From the NCBI GenBank assembly GCA_021779005.1, contig JAJYBN010000020.1, forward strand, positions 1 through 10,714: 10,714 bases of DNA, in the 5' to 3' direction. Positions 2,370 to 10,714 of this stretch are shown piece by piece (the first letter of the stretch is position 1; every line of letters begins with the position of its first letter). Both the position numbers and the translations under genes were made by a program. Below the pieces are notes generated by a model. That model worked only from the letters and a program-made list of their open reading frames with translations, did not search any database and had not been told where the DNA came from. The stretch comes from Pseudomonadota bacterium (GTDB lineage Bacteria > Pseudomonadota > Gammaproteobacteria > Natronospirales > REEB76).

Positions 2370-2421
2370 ATGTGGTATACGACCGATGCTAGGATGAAGT
2401 TTGCGCCAGTGTTTTATTGAT

Positions 2422-3354
2422 ATGAATCAGCCCATCTCCCAGACAAGTTTCCTCAGCAAGCTGCGGATGCGACTGCGGCGTGCAGTGGTACACATCGCCC
2501 CGGGCCGCCCAATCGATGACGCGCTCCTGGAAGAACTCGAAACCCAATTACTTCAGGCGGACGTGGGCGTAGATGCGACACGGACGATTCTCGAGCAGCT
2601 GCGCGTCGGCGCGCGTGAAAACAAGTTGAAGGATGCGGATGCGCTGCGTGCGACCCTGGTGCAAATCATCACCGGCCTGCTGGCGCCGGTGGCACATCCG
2701 CTCAAACTGGGAGGCACAAACAAGCCATTTGTGATCCTGGCTGTGGGTGTGAACGGCGTGGGCAAGACCACCATACTCGGCAAGCTGGCGCTGCGTTTCA
2801 AATCCCGCGGGATCAATCTCATGCTGGCCGCCGGTGACACCTTCCGGGCCGCCGCGGTGGAACAGTTGCAGGCCTGGGGCGCGCGTCAGGAGGTCCCGGT
2901 CATCGCCCAAGCTGCTGGTGCCGACCCGGCCGCCGTGGCCCACGATGCCTGGCTGGCGGCCAAAGCCCGCGGCATCGATGTGCTAATCGTGGATACCGCC
3001 GGACGCCTGCACACCCAGGGCAACCTTATGGAAGAACTGAAAAAAATCCGCCGGGTGCTTACCAGGCTGGATCCGGCTGCGCCACACGAATGCCTGCTGG
3101 TATTGGACGCCGGCACCGGCCAGAATGCCCTGCGCCAGATCGAACAATTCCATGCGGCGGTGGGAGTGACCGGCTTAGTTCTCACCAAGCTGGATGGCAC
3201 CGCCAAAGGCGGTATCGTGATCGCCGCAGCCCAGCGTTTCGGCATCCCGATCCGCTACCTCGGCTTGGGCGAACAGGCCGATGATCTGGAAGAATTCGAT
3301 GCCCAGCCATTTGCATCAGCCTTAATAGGTATCTCCGAGGCCACACACCCTTGA
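2422..3354 (+). CDS. ftsY: Signal recognition particle receptor FtsY (NG domain only)
   Basis: SRP receptor GTPase that pairs with Ffh at the inner membrane to deliver ribosomes making membrane proteins to SecYEG. With the ATG at 2422 it has 310 residues: a helical N domain (about 10-90), then the G domain with GVNGVGKTT (109-117), DTFRAAA (139-145), DTAGR (191-195), TKLDG (255-259) and GLGEQADDLEEF (281-292). It lacks the long acidic A domain of E. coli FtsY (497 residues). A basic, amphipathic N-terminus (SKLRMRLRR) could bind lipid instead. The start is uncertain. An in-frame TTG at 2401 has a better spaced AGGA (2391-2394), whereas the ATG at 2422 has no clear Shine-Dalgarno. A weak extended -10 (TGG-TATACG, 2373-2381) is the only promoter hint between the terminator and the gene. 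The stop overlaps the ftsE start in TTGA. Confidence 0.95.
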   Translation: MNQPISQTSFLSKLRMRLRRAVVHIAPGRPIDDALLEELETQLLQADVGVDATRTILEQLRVGARENKLKDADALRATLVQIITGLLAPVAHPLKLGGTNKPFVILAVGVNGVGKTTILGKLALRFKSRGINLMLAAGDTFRAAAVEQLQAWGARQEVPVIAQAAGADPAAVAHDAWLAAKARGIDVLIVDTAGRLHTQGNLMEELKKIRRVLTRLDPAAPHECLLVLDAGTGQNALRQIEQFHAAVGVTGLVLTKLDGTAKGGIVIAAAQRFGIPIRYLGLGEQADDLEEFDAQPFASALIGISEATHP

Positions 3355-4040
3355 TCCAATTCTCCGAGGTCAGCAAACGTTACGCTGGAGGCAATGAAGC
3401 ACTCTCAGGCGTGAGCTTCAGCATCGAGCGCGGCGAGATGGTGTTTCTCACCGGACCTTCCGGTGCCGGCAAGAGCACCTTGTTAAAACTGTTGGCGCTC
3501 ATTGAGCGGCCAAGCCGCGGCCAAATCATCGTCAACGGCCAGAACCTCTCCGGTATCCGCCGCCGTCAGATCCCCTATTACCGTCGCACAGTGGGAGTCA
3601 TTTTTCAGGACCATAAACTGCTGCATGAACGTACGGTGTTCGATAACGTGGCTATACCGCTTACCATCGCCGGGGTGTTCTACAAGGATATCCCGCGGCG
3701 CGTGGGCGCGGCCCTGGAGTTAGTGGGACTGTTGCATAAGGAACGCGCTCTGCCGCTGGCCCTGTCAACCGGTGAACAACAGCGCGTCGGCATCGCGCGC
3801 GCCGTCATCAGCCGACCGCCTATCCTGATCGCCGATGAGCCTACCGGTAACCTGGATCCGGATCTTTCCTACGAAGTCATGCAGTTGTTCCAGCGCCTGA
3901 ACCAAGTGGGCATCACGGTGTTGGTCGCCAGCCACGATCATAATCTGATCCGGCGTCTCGGCCAGCGCTACCTGAGCCTGCGTGCCGGCCGCATGGTGGC
4001 GCCTGAACTCCAGGGAGGCCACGATGCCGAGCATGCATGA
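3351..4040 (+). CDS. ftsE: Cell division ABC-type ATPase FtsE
   Basis: Cytoplasmic ATPase of the FtsEX complex, which couples divisome assembly to cell-wall hydrolysis through FtsX and periplasmic EnvC-type amidase activators. The 229 residues include Walker A GPSGAGKST (35-43), Q-loop Gln86 (VIFQDHK), signature LSTGEQQR (138-145), Walker B ILIADE (158-163) with catalytic Glu163, D-loop GNLD and H-loop His195. The signature has Thr140 where E. coli FtsE has Gly (LSGGE). The start is a TTG, and MIQF aligns exactly with MIRF of E. coli FtsE. It overlaps the ftsY stop by 4 nt (TTGA), pointing to coupled translation. The product is slightly longer at the C-terminus than the 222-residue E. coli protein, and ftsX begins inside this end. 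Confidence 0.97.
   Translation: MIQFSEVSKRYAGGNEALSGVSFSIERGEMVFLTGPSGAGKSTLLKLLALIERPSRGQIIVNGQNLSGIRRRQIPYYRRTVGVIFQDHKLLHERTVFDNVAIPLTIAGVFYKDIPRRVGAALELVGLLHKERALPLALSTGEQQRVGIARAVISRPPILIADEPTGNLDPDLSYEVMQLFQRLNQVGITVLVASHDHNLIRRLGQRYLSLRAGRMVAPELQGGHDAEHA
4013..4018 (+). promoter_or_regulatory. Ribosome binding site for ftsX inside ftsE
   Basis: GGGAGG lies within the last codons of ftsE, 5 nt before the ATG at 4024. It decides the ftsX start against the nearby ATG at 4033 and an upstream in-frame GTG at 3982, neither of which has such a site. Confidence 0.8.
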
Positions 4041-5004
4041 CGAAGGCGCACACGGCGCGCAACTCAATCAGCGGACGCTAAGCCAGCGGATAGGTGCCTA
4101 TTTTCTGCATCACCGGCAAATGCTGCTGGCGGGATTCGCACGCTTGCGTCATCACCCACTGGCCACCTTCATGACCGTGGCGGTCATTGGCATCGCACTG
4201 GCGTTACCCGCTGGCACCTTGCTGCTGGTGAAAAATGCCAAAAACCTGAGCGGTAACTGGAAGGGTGCAGCGCGTATCTCATTATTCCTGAAACCAGGAC
4301 TCAGCGATGCCATGGTTCAGCAATTAGCCACGAACGTACGCGCTCAAGCGGGTGTGGGGATGGTGCAGATAATCACCGCCAGCCAATCACTAGCAGATTT
4401 CCAACAACGCTCTGGTTTCGGAGATGCCATGAACCTGCTAGGGAGCAATCCGCTGCCTGCAGTGCTGGTCATCCAGCCAACCGATGACTACGCCACCCCC
4501 GCGGCAACCCAGCAGTTGGGCAAAACCCTGGGCGCGCTGCCGCAGGTGGATCAGGTACGCATGGACATTCAGTGGTTGGAGCGTCTGCAAGCCATGCTGG
4601 ATATCCTGCGGCGCGCAGTCATCATCATCGGACTGCTGCTGGGGCTCGCGGTGGTGTTCATCGTGGGCAATACCATACGTCTGGAAATCGAGAACCAGCG
4701 AACCGAGATCGAGGTGAGCAAACTCTTGGGGGCCACCGACCGCTTCATCCGCAGGCCCTTCCTCTACCACGGAGCCTGGTACGGCCTGGCTGGAGGGGTA
4801 CTGGCCTGGCTGCTGGTAGTCATCGCAGTGTTGCTCATGGCGGGGCCTGTGGGCCGGTTGGCGAGTCTTTATGGCGGCCAGTTCAGCTTGAGCGGGTTGG
4901 GGTTCGAAGGCAGCGTGTGGCTGCTGGTCAGCGGCATCGCCCTAGGCTGGCTGGGCTCCTGGCTGGCCGTGGCCCGGCACTTGCGGGATATCGAACCAGC
5001 TTGA
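4024..5004 (+). CDS. ftsX: Cell division membrane protein FtsX
   Basis: Inner-membrane partner of FtsE that passes ATP-driven conformational change to periplasmic EnvC-type activators of cell-wall amidases at the septum. The 326 residues show the family layout: cytoplasmic N-terminus, TM1 (about 47-69), a periplasmic domain (about 70-196), TM2 (198-219), TM3 (252-275) and TM4 (296-317). The conserved cytoplasmic stretch EIENQRTEIEVSKLLGATD after TM2 is typical of FtsX. E. coli FtsX has 352 residues; the difference is mainly a shorter cytoplasmic N-terminus. The gene overlaps ftsE by 17 nt. Its stop codon (5002-5004) lies inside a TTGACA hexamer that may belong to an rpoH promoter. Confidence 0.95.
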   Translation: MPSMHDEGAHGAQLNQRTLSQRIGAYFLHHRQMLLAGFARLRHHPLATFMTVAVIGIALALPAGTLLLVKNAKNLSGNWKGAARISLFLKPGLSDAMVQQLATNVRAQAGVGMVQIITASQSLADFQQRSGFGDAMNLLGSNPLPAVLVIQPTDDYATPAATQQLGKTLGALPQVDQVRMDIQWLERLQAMLDILRRAVIIIGLLLGLAVVFIVGNTIRLEIENQRTEIEVSKLLGATDRFIRRPFLYHGAWYGLAGGVLAWLLVVIAVLLMAGPVGRLASLYGGQFSLSGLGFEGSVWLLVSGIALGWLGSWLAVARHLRDIEPA

Positions 5005-5031: not shown

Positions 5032-5045
5032 CGCCATTACCACCT

Positions 5046-5073
5046 GGAACTTTGGTGCCTATTAGCACTCAAA
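5046..5073 (+). promoter_or_regulatory. Sigma-E (RpoE) type promoter for rpoH
   Basis: GGAACTT (5046-5052) matches the sigma-E -35 consensus completely. It is followed after 16 nt by TCAAA (5069-5073), an accepted sigma-E -10 form. E. coli rpoH also has a sigma-E promoter (P3) with the same 16-nt spacing, so both position and gene fit. The predicted start, near 5080, lies inside the CIRCE operator, so bound HrcA should block this promoter. This is a sequence match only. Confidence 0.72.
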
Positions 5074-5088
5074 CACCCGGAGTGCTAA
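5062..5088 (+). promoter_or_regulatory. CIRCE operator (HrcA binding site) in the rpoH promoter
   Basis: TTAGCACTC (5062-5070), a 9-nt spacer (5071-5079) and GAGTGCTAA (5080-5088) form the exact CIRCE consensus with no mismatch. CIRCE is bound by the repressor HrcA, whose activity in characterised bacteria is promoted by GroEL and lost on heat shock. Its usual targets are groESL and dnaK/grpE operons. Here it sits 29 nt before the rpoH start codon and covers the -10 of a sigma-E promoter and most of a sigma-70-like promoter. hrcA itself is not in the window. Confidence 0.94.
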
Positions 5089-5091
5089 AAT
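5062..5091 (+). promoter_or_regulatory. Candidate sigma-70 promoter embedded in CIRCE
   Basis: TAAAAT (5086-5091), preceded by TGC (5083-5085), makes an extended -10 element (TGN-TAAAAT). TTAGCA (5062-5067) is a 4/6 match to the -35, with an 18-nt spacer. Both hexamers share bases with the CIRCE arms, so HrcA binding and RNA polymerase binding should exclude each other. The predicted start near 5098 leaves a leader of only about 20 nt, which carries the ribosome binding site AGGAGG (5107-5112). Confidence 0.55.
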
Positions 5092-5117
5092 GCGACTCAA
5101 GCTTTTAGGAGGTTTTC

Positions 5118-5990
5118 ATGGCGCGTAATGCCCTAATGCCCCGTTCGCAACAGCTAATCCTGGCTGGCCCCACCGGCAGTCTGGATGCCTATATCCAGGC
5201 AATCAATGCTGTCCCGGTCTTGAGTGCGCGGGAAGAGCGTGCCTTGGCGGTACGTTTCCGCGAATCCGAGGATCTGGAGGCCGCCCGTGAGTTGGTGCTG
5301 CACCATCTGCGTTTCGTGGTGCATGTGGCGCGCGGTTACCTGGGCTACGGGCTGCCGCTCGGCGACCTCATCCAAGAAGGCAACATCGGCCTGATGAAGG
5401 CGGTCAAACGCTTCGATCCGGAAGTGGGCGTGCGCCTGGTATCGTTCGCCGTACATTGGATCAAGGCGGAGATGCACGAATTCATCCTTAAGAACTGGCG
5501 TATTGTCAAGGTGGCCACCACCAAGTCGCAACGCAAGCTGTTCTTCAACTTGCGCAGTTCCAAGAAACGCCTCGGTTGGATGAACCACGAGGAAGTGGAA
5601 ACCATCGCGCGGGAATTGAAAGTCTCACCCAAAGAAGTGATGGAAATGGAATCCCGGCTCGCCGGCCAAGACATCACCTTTGACCTCACGCCCGAAACAG
5701 ATGATGATGACAGTCGCAGCGTGGCACCGGTGTCTTACCTGACAGCAGACAATAACGCGGATCCCGCGCAAGCGCTGGAACACACGGATTCTGCAACCAA
5801 AGGCGAGGCGCAACTGCAGCGCGCCCTCGTGAAGCTCGATGACCGCAGCCGTCACATCATGCAGCGGCGCTGGCTGGATGAGAACAAGGCGACCCTGCAG
5901 GAACTGGCGAACCATTACGGCGTATCAGCGGAACGCATTCGCCAACTTGAAAACAACGCTATCAAGAAACTCGGCGTACTCATGGCTTAA
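5118..5990 (+). CDS. rpoH: Heat-shock sigma factor RpoH (sigma-32)
   Basis: Alternative sigma factor that directs RNA polymerase to chaperone and protease genes. Its 290 residues compare with 284 in E. coli. Visible are region 2.2 ([19 protein letters not shown], 83-101), the RpoH box QRKLFFNLR (138-146), which is diagnostic against RpoD and RpoS, an acidic linker with DDDD (195-198), and a region 4.2 helix-turn-helix (about 258-285, [20 protein letters not shown]). The region 2.1 stretch that controls stability in E. coli (Leu47, Ala50, Lys51, Ile54) aligns with Leu53, Ala56, Arg57 and Val60, so only conservative changes; turnover by the SRP/FtsY-FtsH route is therefore plausible. The start has a strong AGGAGG 5 nt upstream. 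Regulation appears to involve up to three promoters and a CIRCE operator. A terminator follows. Confidence 0.97.
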
Positions 5991-8712: not shown

Positions 8713-10714
8713 TCACAGAGTTGCAGTCGCCCTCGCTTGCGTACTTTGGCTGTATTCCCTGAGCAGGGCATGAAAGGCGGGATCCGTGCGCAGCGGATCC
8801 CATTCAGGGTCCAACTGAAGCAAAGCGATAGTGATCCTGCCGCCATAGAAACTGCTACTGTACGGGACTGAGAGTAGGTGACGGATTGCATCGATTGCCT
8901 GATGGCGTTCACCAACTTGCATTTCGATGCGAGCCAGTATCTCGTCATAGCCTGGCCCGTAGAACGCATCCGAGCTGGCAGATACCAGGGCCACGGCTTT
9001 GCGGCCAGCTGCGAGTGCTGCGCCTTTATGCCCCAATCCTGCCTCTGTGAGTCCCAGCCATGCATACACGAGCGGATTGCCCGGATCCTTCTTAAGTCGG
9101 GCCTTTATTGCATCGCGTGCGCGATGATAGGCCGAGGTGGCCGCATCCGGATGCCCCGCGAGCTGTTCGGCAAATCCCAGTTGTTGACCGAAAACACCCT
9201 GCTGCAGGTAAAGTCCCGGCTGAGGCCGTGCGAGCATCGTTTGCAACATCTGGATTGCAGCGGCGTAATCGCGCTTATAGAATTGGTGCTGAACAGCCAT
9301 GAGGAAGTTACCAGGATTCGTGGGGGGTATCGTTATCCCGGCAAGCACCTGTGCTGCATGCGGCATGTCACCTTGGGATTCATAAAATGCCGCCTTATAT
9401 ATCAGCAGATCAGGTGAATCGGGGTTGACCACCAGCCCCCGATTCACCAAGTTCAGGGCTTCCGTGTAGCGGCCGAGGGCGCCATAGGTGGCGGCAAATT
9501 GTTCCAGCAGTGCGATGTTGAGAGGATCTAGTGCGACCGCCTGCTGTTCTTGTTCAATTGTTTGTGTCCACTTTCCCTGCTGACGCATGAGATAGCCAAG
9601 CTCCGCAAGCGCCTCAGCGTTGTTTGGCAGTTGCTCGATAGCGCGTTCATAGGCAATTCGTGCCCGGGGATGATCGTTCTGGCCATAGTAATAATAGTTA
9701 CCGAGTGCGAGCTGCGTTTCACCCCGATCTGGAGCAAGCGCGCGCGCCTTGTAAATCGCATGTGTCGCTAATTGCAGACGTTGCTGAGTATGGTCGTAGT
9801 AGCTATAAATCTGACTCTCGACGCCGGCAAGCCTTGCCCAGGCCAAGGCGAATCTGGGATCGAGCTGGACAGCGAGGCTGTAGCTATCAGCAGCCTGCTG
9901 CAGCGCGGCGGCATCGCCTTCATCGGCAGCTTTTTTGGCGAGCCCACGCAAGTAGGCGTCATACGCAGCTATATTCGTGGTCGACTGTGCAGCGAGATGC
10001 TGGATTTGTGTAGTGGTTAAACTTGCCTGGAGCGCAGCAGCGACCATTCTTGCCACCTCATTCTCCACCCCAAAGATATTGCTTAACGTACGCTCATAAC
10101 TTTCGGCCCAAATATGGCTATTGTTCTGAGCATCAATTAATTGCACATCGATCAGCACATGGTTGCCAGCTTTCTGCACGCTACCTTCCAGGACCGTGGC
10201 GACACCCAACTGTTCGCCAATGGGCTTCAAATCCTCTGGGTAACTGCTGTACTTTGCGGTTGAAGTGCGTGCGATCACCTTGATGCCGCCGATACTTGCC
10301 AGCTTGGTGAGGATGATGTCCTGCATGCCGGCTGCAAAATAGGCGTTGTTCTTGTCGGGAGAGAGGTTCTCGAACGGCAGTACCGCCACGGATTTGGCGG
10401 GAATCACGGTGGCGACAGCGGGCGCAAGAGCGCTCGGTAGCGCGTTGGCCAAGGTAATTGCCTGTTCGGCTTGCATATGCCGTGCATTAGCCCGCCACAG
10501 CAATACACCCGAATAAGTGACTAGCACTATAATGACGACGGAGAGTACCGAGCCCAATCTCCAACGCAACTTATGCCAGCGGGAGTACTTCGCCGGATCT
10601 TCTTTTGAGGGCGGGATGAACATCCAGCCCACCACTAACACCACCGGGAACAGCAGTGCCACAGCCACGATCAGGATCAGTACACTCTGACGTGGCCAGC
10701 CGAGGTTGGGAATG
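8713..10714 (-). CDS. Membrane-anchored FlgO/TolB-N-like protein with TPR repeats (5' end cut by window)
   Basis: The frame stays open to the right edge, so the true start is outside. 666 residues are visible, numbered here from the first whole codon at 10711-10713. Two hydrophobic helices lie at about 11-32 and 54-73. Then comes a FlgO/TolB-N-like domain (about 107-232) opening with SVAVLPFENLSPDK and containing EQLGVATVLEGSV and HIWAESYERTL. A TPR solenoid follows, with the clearest repeats near 274-297, 316-343, 351-380, 385-414 and 418-448 and more degenerate ones after. The end has the recurrent motif WDPLRTDPAF (638-647). In relatives with this layout the missing N-terminus is often a winged-helix DNA-binding, kinase or adenylate cyclase domain, or just another helix. 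Which applies here cannot be seen, so its role (signalling or regulation against scaffold) is open. It is the first visible gene of a possible three-gene minus-strand group. Confidence 0.85.
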   Translation of the reverse strand, partial: IPNLGWPRQSVLILIVAVALLFPVVLVVGWMFIPPSKEDPAKYSRWHKLRWRLGSVLSVVIIVLVTYSGVLLWRANARHMQAEQAITLANALPSALAPAVATVIPAKSVAVLPFENLSPDKNNAYFAAGMQDIILTKLASIGGIKVIARTSTAKYSSYPEDLKPIGEQLGVATVLEGSVQKAGNHVLIDVQLIDAQNNSHIWAESYERTLSNIFGVENEVARMVAAALQASLTTTQIQHLAAQSTTNIAAYDAYLRGLAKKAADEGDAAALQQAADSYSLAVQLDPRFALAWARLAGVESQIYSYYDHTQQRLQLATHAIYKARALAPDRGETQLALGNYYYYGQNDHPRARIAYERAIEQLPNNAEALAELGYLMRQQGKWTQTIEQEQQAVALDPLNIALLEQFAATYGALGRYTEALNLVNRGLVVNPDSPDLLIYKAAFYESQGDMPHAAQVLAGITIPPTNPGNFLMAVQHQFYKRDYAAAIQMLQTMLARPQPGLYLQQGVFGQQLGFAEQLAGHPDAATSAYHRARDAIKARLKKDPGNPLVYAWLGLTEAGLGHKGAALAAGRKAVALVSASSDAFYGPGYDEILARIEMQVGERHQAIDAIRHLLSVPYSSSFYGGRITIALLQLDPEWDPLRTDPAFHALLREYSQSTQARATATL

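Follow-up and report, generated by a model that had tools for sequence, protein, structure and literature searches.

The gap between ftsX and rpoH in the window (the whole 10 714-nt stretch of DNA that was analysed) carries a perfect CIRCE sequence, which is most likely an operator for the repressor HrcA and which overlaps two putative promoters of rpoH, the gene encoding the heat-shock sigma factor sigma-32. We put the probability that positions 5062–5088 represent an HrcA operator of rpoH, with the overlapping promoters under its control, at roughly three in four. The link between CIRCE and rpoH is not itself new; it is the overlapping promoter–operator design, together with its spread, that is of interest here. 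From comparison of sequences, we infer that HrcA controls rpoH in this bacterium.

A predicted HrcA operator upstream of rpoH

Positions 5062–5088 read TTAGCACTC-AAACACCCG-GAGTGCTAA, in which both 9-nt arms are exact and enclose a 9-nt spacer (0 mismatches). The pattern TTAGCACTC-N9-GAGTGCTAA matched only here when the whole window was scanned at up to 3 mismatches, which confirmed the preliminary description of this DNA as having exact 9-nt arms and a 9-nt spacer that end 29 nt ahead of the rpoH ATG at 5118. A chance match as the origin of the CIRCE was ruled out by dinucleotide shuffling of the window, as 0/200 shuffles contained any match at up to 3 mismatches. The site is located in a 113-bp intergenic gap, downstream of the consecutive ORFs ftsY, ftsE and ftsX, which overlap one another (Table 1). 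Elsewhere in the window, the product of positions 142–2322 resembles VolA/Pla-1 phospholipase (287 bits, under the cut-off of 384), and that of positions 8713–10668 on the minus strand is a TPR-repeat protein for which NCBIfam gave no match above cut-off.

Table 1. Features of the window, and CIRCE sites elsewhere in the host genome
Feature	Position	Strand	Basis or remark
ftsY	2401..3354	+	TIGR00064, 332 bits
ftsE	3351..4040	+	TIGR02673, 293 bits
ftsX, cell-division permease	3982..5004	+	TIGR00439, 368 bits; longest ORF, true start may be further in
Putative sigma-E-type -35 element GGAACTT	5046..5052	+	Conserved at rpoH-CIRCE sites
Predicted CIRCE operator (HrcA site), perfect	5062..5088	+	Pattern match; kept at rpoH of relatives
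Weak -35-like TTAGCA, 18-nt spacer	5062..5067	+	Inside left CIRCE arm
Putative sigma-E-type -10 element TCAAA	5069..5073	+	TC closes the left CIRCE arm and AAA opens the spacer
Putative extended -10 TGCTAAAAT, sigma-70-type promoter	5083..5091	+	Right CIRCE arm plus AAT
Ribosome-binding site AGGAGGT	5107..5113	+	Read off sequence
rpoH, heat-shock sigma factor sigma-32	5118..5990	+	TIGR02392, 403 bits, cut-off 323
CIRCE at groES-groEL operon	Contig C74		Perfect; downstream genes read from sequence
CIRCE at hrcA	Contig C92		1 mismatch; downstream gene read from sequence

The preliminary description had proposed looking in the same genome for hrcA and for CIRCE ahead of groESL, and both were there. 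In the host assembly (1.32 Mb in 228 contigs, 52% complete), hrcA was identified by its profile (PF01628, E 1.8e-68), and a genome-wide CIRCE scan at up to 3 mismatches located three places, compared with 0 for a reversed control pattern. Besides the rpoH site, these were a perfect CIRCE ahead of groESL and a copy with 1 mismatch ahead of hrcA. The repressor gene, two usual HrcA targets and the rpoH CIRCE co-occur in one genome.

We assembled a set of 56 genomes of relatives, the host included, in which rpoH was found in 52 and hrcA in 41. Leaving the window aside, there were 52 rpoH matches in 51 genomes; the upstream region of each was taken, and a CIRCE was scored when it lay within 400 nt upstream of the matched rpoH stretch with no more than 2 mismatches. 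Counting the host window, CIRCE preceded rpoH in 36/40 cases in hrcA-bearing genomes versus 3/13 in genomes without a found hrcA (Fisher p = 1.1e-5, a value overstated by kinship among the genomes); leaving out the host window, the figures were 35/39 and 3/13. The best CIRCE scores at rpoH of the relatives were either 0–2 or 6–8 mismatches, with nothing between. The arms proved to be conserved in close relatives, a point raised in the preliminary description, with a perfect CIRCE at rpoH in 9/9 same-genus genomes with rpoH found and in the single same-family genome; in the tenth same-genus genome (G007), no rpoH was found.

Exceptions ran in both directions. Four of the 40 rpoH genes in hrcA-bearing genomes had no CIRCE, one of these being a second rpoH copy. 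Genome G050 carries two rpoH genes (L190 and L191), one with a CIRCE (1 mismatch) and the other without. The three CIRCE-bearing genomes in which hrcA was not found are 62%, 90% and 97% complete. In the most complete of them (G034, locus L176), rpoH is preceded by a CIRCE with 1 mismatch, which may be a relic or may be read by another factor.

The arrangement is also found among named bacteria. Among the best 80 of at least 591 named rpoH loci, which are not a random draw, 44 carried a CIRCE at no more than 2 mismatches within 400 nt of the match, 5 scored 3–5 and 31 scored 6–9; one of these loci (L070) offered just 75 nt of upstream sequence. Named loci with CIRCE at rpoH include Pandoraea, Nitrosomonas, Dyella, Methylocaldum and Pseudoalteromonas, while no CIRCE at up to 4 mismatches was seen at the Vibrio, Aeromonas and Enterobacterales rpoH loci among these best 80 of at least 591. 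A quirk of one lineage as the explanation of CIRCE at rpoH was ruled out by this spread, both in the relatives and in a class-wide draw of genomes described below. A 2003 article by Permina and Gelfand, the title of which reportedly covers HrcA/CIRCE in beta- and gammaproteobacteria, may already list CIRCE at rpoH.

Promoter-like elements overlapping the operator

Promoters recognized by sigma-E have a -35 element GGAACTT, a spacer of about 16 nt and a -10 element TCNRA, and the extended -10 consensus of sigma-70 promoters is TGnTAnnAT. Positions 5046–5073 of the window read GGAACTT-N16-TCAAA, with the -35 just upstream of the CIRCE and the -10 lying across the left arm and spacer, and this is the single occurrence of GGAACTT-N16-TCNRA in the window. 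It should be noted that 23/200 shuffles contained at least one match to the sigma-E pattern at up to 1 mismatch, so that a single sigma-E-like site alone is weak evidence. A sigma-70 promoter scanner additionally reported 5062–5091, with TG preceding the -10.

A gap-free alignment of 83 rpoH-CIRCE sites (38 from relatives, 44 from named loci and the window) brought out three elements. The sequence GGAAC(T/C)T begins 16 nt ahead of the CIRCE, and the first bases of the spacer often complete TC(T/C/A)AA where the left arm meets the spacer; taken together as GGAACTT-N16-TCNAA, these two elements have the form of a putative sigma-E promoter. The third element consists of A and T at two and three bases past the right arm, by which TGCTAA becomes TGCTAA-N-A-T. 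This fits the extended -10 consensus, and in the window it appears as TGCTAAAAT at 5083–5091.

These elements, which the preliminary description did not mention, are kept at the CIRCE sites of rpoH and not at those of groESL and hrcA. For comparison, 45 oriented control windows were derived from 51 non-rpoH CIRCE places and assigned by regular expression alone (31 to groES and 14 to hrcA). The operator at groESL and hrcA is the same as that at rpoH of the same genomes, but its surroundings differ: GGAACTT (at least 6/7, offsets -25 to -8 from CIRCE) was present at 51/83 rpoH sites versus 0/45 groESL/hrcA windows, and NAT followed the right arm at 70/83 versus 0/45. Fifty of the GGAACTT matches at rpoH fall in three adjacent registers. 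Relaxing the threshold to at least 5/7 brought in 1/45 of the control windows, and TCN(A/G)A occupied the -10 place at 41/83 rpoH sites versus 7/45 groESL/hrcA windows. Unlike the rpoH sites, the groESL CIRCE has a TTGAC-like -35 upstream of the operator, along with TATNA adjoining the left arm.

In the class-wide draw of 369 genomes, exact CIRCE-NAT was found in 106, and GAAC-N10..12-CIRCE-NAT in 63, representing 43 of 271 genera. A control with CAAG in place of GAAC was found in 0/369; for any one four-letter word allowed in three registers, the chance expectation is about 3/256 of the 106 genomes. Among the matches listed, rpoH lay directly downstream on the same strand in 30/30 GAAC-CIRCE-NAT loci and in 27/30 CIRCE-NAT loci; one of the three loci without rpoH (L319) is short, at 1595 bases.

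The occurrence of the upstream element followed that of rpoE. At CIRCE-bearing rpoH genes of relatives, a GGAACTT-like element (at least 5/7, with AAC) was present in 27/33 rpoE-bearing genomes versus 0/5 without a found rpoE (Fisher p = 0.0009, an overstated value given that related genomes are not independent), and 6/33 rpoE-bearing genomes had none at the expected place. When all rpoH genes except that of the window were scored (10/11 or better at any place within 400 nt), the counts were 23/37 for rpoE-bearing genomes versus 1/15 for those with none found (p = 0.0004). In genome G049, where no rpoE was found, rpoH is preceded by TGAACTT-N16-TCAAA.

Neither rpoE nor rseA was found in the 52%-complete host genome, a result that carries little weight at such completeness. 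As rpoE was detected in 10/10 same-genus genomes, and as GGAAC is kept at the position seen in the window in 9/9 same-genus rpoH genes examined, the failure to find rpoE probably comes from the half-complete state of the assembly.

The strict form GGAACTT-N15..17-TCNRA, counted on both strands of six whole genomes, was not enriched, with 23 matches versus 31 for the reversed control (4/2 in G000, 2/9 in G001, 8/8 in G003, 2/3 in G008, 4/4 in G009 and 3/5 in G011). The promoter reading consequently rests on place and conservation. Upstream regions of rpoE were taken from 20 of the 40 genomes with an rpoE match, and the first two patterns applied to them each gave 0/20. A looser form, GAACT-N15..18-TC, which was picked after inspecting the sequences and is hence descriptive, was present in 19/20 genomes versus 0/20 on the antisense strand (L236–L255, about 126–151 nt before the end of each stretch), which suggests that rpoE may be autoregulated.

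Alternative explanations for the rpoH site

The evidence above bears on several other accounts of the site. The sigma-70-type promoter might be the only one through which HrcA controls rpoH, with the sigma-E-like element either a relic or in use just in relatives. The failure to find rpoE in the host assembly would fit such an arrangement, as would the 33/83 rpoH-CIRCE sites that lack GGAACTT (at least 6/7) at the three main registers while NAT is kept in 70/83. We nevertheless consider it unlikely, given that the match in the window is perfect, that GGAAC is kept in all nine same-genus rpoH genes examined and that every one of the ten same-genus genomes has rpoE. GGAACTT could also belong to the HrcA site of rpoH as an accessory part, without being a promoter element, and its nearly fixed distance from the CIRCE speaks for this. 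An accessory role is, however, highly improbable: the element is missing from all 45 other CIRCE windows at 6/7 or better (1/45 at 5/7 or better), GGAACTT-N16-TCTGA stands at rpoH genes without CIRCE in Lelliottia (twice) and Kluyvera, and the similar sequence before rpoE, GAACT-N15..18-TC, occurs in 19/20 genomes on the sense strand alone.

Two further accounts concern transcription arriving from upstream. Bound HrcA could act mainly as a roadblock to transcription coming from ftsYEX, rather than as a block to initiation, and here the overlapping ftsY, ftsE and ftsX ORFs, the 113-bp gap before rpoH and the lack of any terminator-like site on the plus strand between 4950 and 6100 are all in its favour. 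A roadblock would not, though, require the fixed register of promoter-like elements over the CIRCE, and we regard it as quite improbable. The inverted repeat could instead act in the ftsX read-through RNA, where a hairpin and its flanks would mask the ribosome-binding site and so serve to insulate rpoH or to sense temperature. The predicted fold of 5040–5135 is more stable than that of shuffled sequences (z -2.3; 2/200 as stable), although the perfect 9-bp stem alone would stabilize any such RNA, and the stability of transcripts from the two predicted start sites is unremarkable (z 0.70 and 0.76). In the window the rpoH ribosome-binding site is predicted to pair with about 5040–5049, just before the CIRCE. 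Upstream pairing of this kind was predicted in 12/23 folded sequences, the window included (11/22 relatives), but not in the other 11/23, where the test also scores no if the motif is not found. Moreover, the way in which CIRCE tracks hrcA is unexplained by an RNA function, and we judge such a function to be very unlikely.

Relation to known systems and a proposed circuit

The doubt about novelty voiced in the preliminary description was justified, as the CIRCE–rpoH link was printed in 2004 as a prediction for Geobacter sulfurreducens (PMC545781). Table 8 of that paper, by Rodionov et al., lists a perfect CIRCE for rpoH of G. sulfurreducens at position -51, and CIRCE was also predicted there at groESL and at hrcA-grpE-dnaK-dnaJ. 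As in the window, the case of G. sulfurreducens combines a perfect CIRCE before rpoH with CIRCE at groESL and hrcA, and is likewise a prediction. G. sulfurreducens is a delta-proteobacterium, and in the portion of the paper available to us, compared by description, no overlapping sigma-E or extended -10 promoter is described (PMC545781). The parts available of PMC8103513, PMC3224663, PMC10490939 and PMC10696704 make no mention of CIRCE at rpoH. An overlapping promoter–operator design at rpoH was not found described in the literature searched, a body with most subscription papers outside it. With the CIRCE–rpoH link known in print as a prediction, the promoter overlap suggests that two stress circuits are more closely coupled.

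The E. coli rpoH gene offers the closest comparison for the promoter. Its P3 promoter is driven by sigma-E, and the -35 element of E. coli RpoE is given as GGAACTT in the part of the source available (PMC8103513). Upstream of rpoH of E. coli K-12 we found GAACTT-N16-TCTGA, which shares the -35 core and the spacing with the window. Unlike the window, the E. coli K-12 gene had no CIRCE visible in the 200 nt upstream, and a control search of E. coli with the hrcA profile gave no match. On the simplest reading, the sigma-E promoter would be shared, and the CIRCE would have been lost along with hrcA.

One published time course does not fit easily. In Xylella fastidiosa under nitrogen starvation, the level of hrcA had risen four-fold at 2 h and that of rpoH two-fold at 8 and 12 h, according to the part available of PMC3224663. 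This timing does not look like simple repression, and may count against HrcA control of rpoH.

Heat-shock regulation is usually taught as two separate plans, namely repression by HrcA and, as in E. coli, control of sigma-32 through its translation, activity and stability. In the first of these, free GroEL keeps HrcA active. We propose that, at rpoH, HrcA kept active by free GroEL would occupy the CIRCE and block both promoters, since the sigma-E -10 would lie beneath it together with most of the extended -10 promoter. When heat or misfolding loads GroEL with unfolded protein, HrcA would release the CIRCE, and rpoH could then be transcribed by the housekeeping polymerase; under envelope stress, sigma-E would add to this transcription once the CIRCE is free. 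RpoH would in turn switch on chaperone genes, and the additional GroEL would restore HrcA and turn rpoH off again. Most likely, then, HrcA would shut both promoters, and sigma-E and the housekeeping polymerase would make RpoH only under GroEL overload.

We see an even chance that such a two-key lock operates at rpoH of many Gammaproteobacteria (as defined by GTDB, and so with the betaproteobacteria). The left half of the CIRCE would supply the sigma-E -10 and the right half would form the extended -10 promoter, so that envelope stress would raise RpoH only with the GroEL/HrcA gate open; E. coli would then be derived, having lost both HrcA and CIRCE but retained P3. If this is true, many relatives of E. 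coli stack both heat-shock plans, placing a chaperonin-sensing repressor over an envelope-stress promoter of sigma-32. It would explain, simply and in a testable way, how stress signals from the envelope and the cytoplasm are joined, and would give a direction for the origin of the E. coli circuit.

Several rpoH loci depart from the arrangement in the window. At L329, L330, L071 and L184 (G043), GGAACTT-N16-TCNAA starts about 30–45 nt upstream of the CIRCE and does not overlap it, so that in these lineages control by sigma-E may be independent of control by HrcA. At some rpoH genes, including those of Xanthomonas and relatives, the two CIRCE arms are altered alike, as TTAGCAGTC-N9-GACTGCTAA; this form is complete in L012 (2930) and L156 (G014), and partly decayed in L007 (2940) and L008 (about 2930–2965). 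The matching changes in the arms may reflect a shifted HrcA specificity. Finally, L170 (G028) carries tandem CIRCE-like sites before rpoH, a copy with 1 mismatch lying just upstream of a perfect one.
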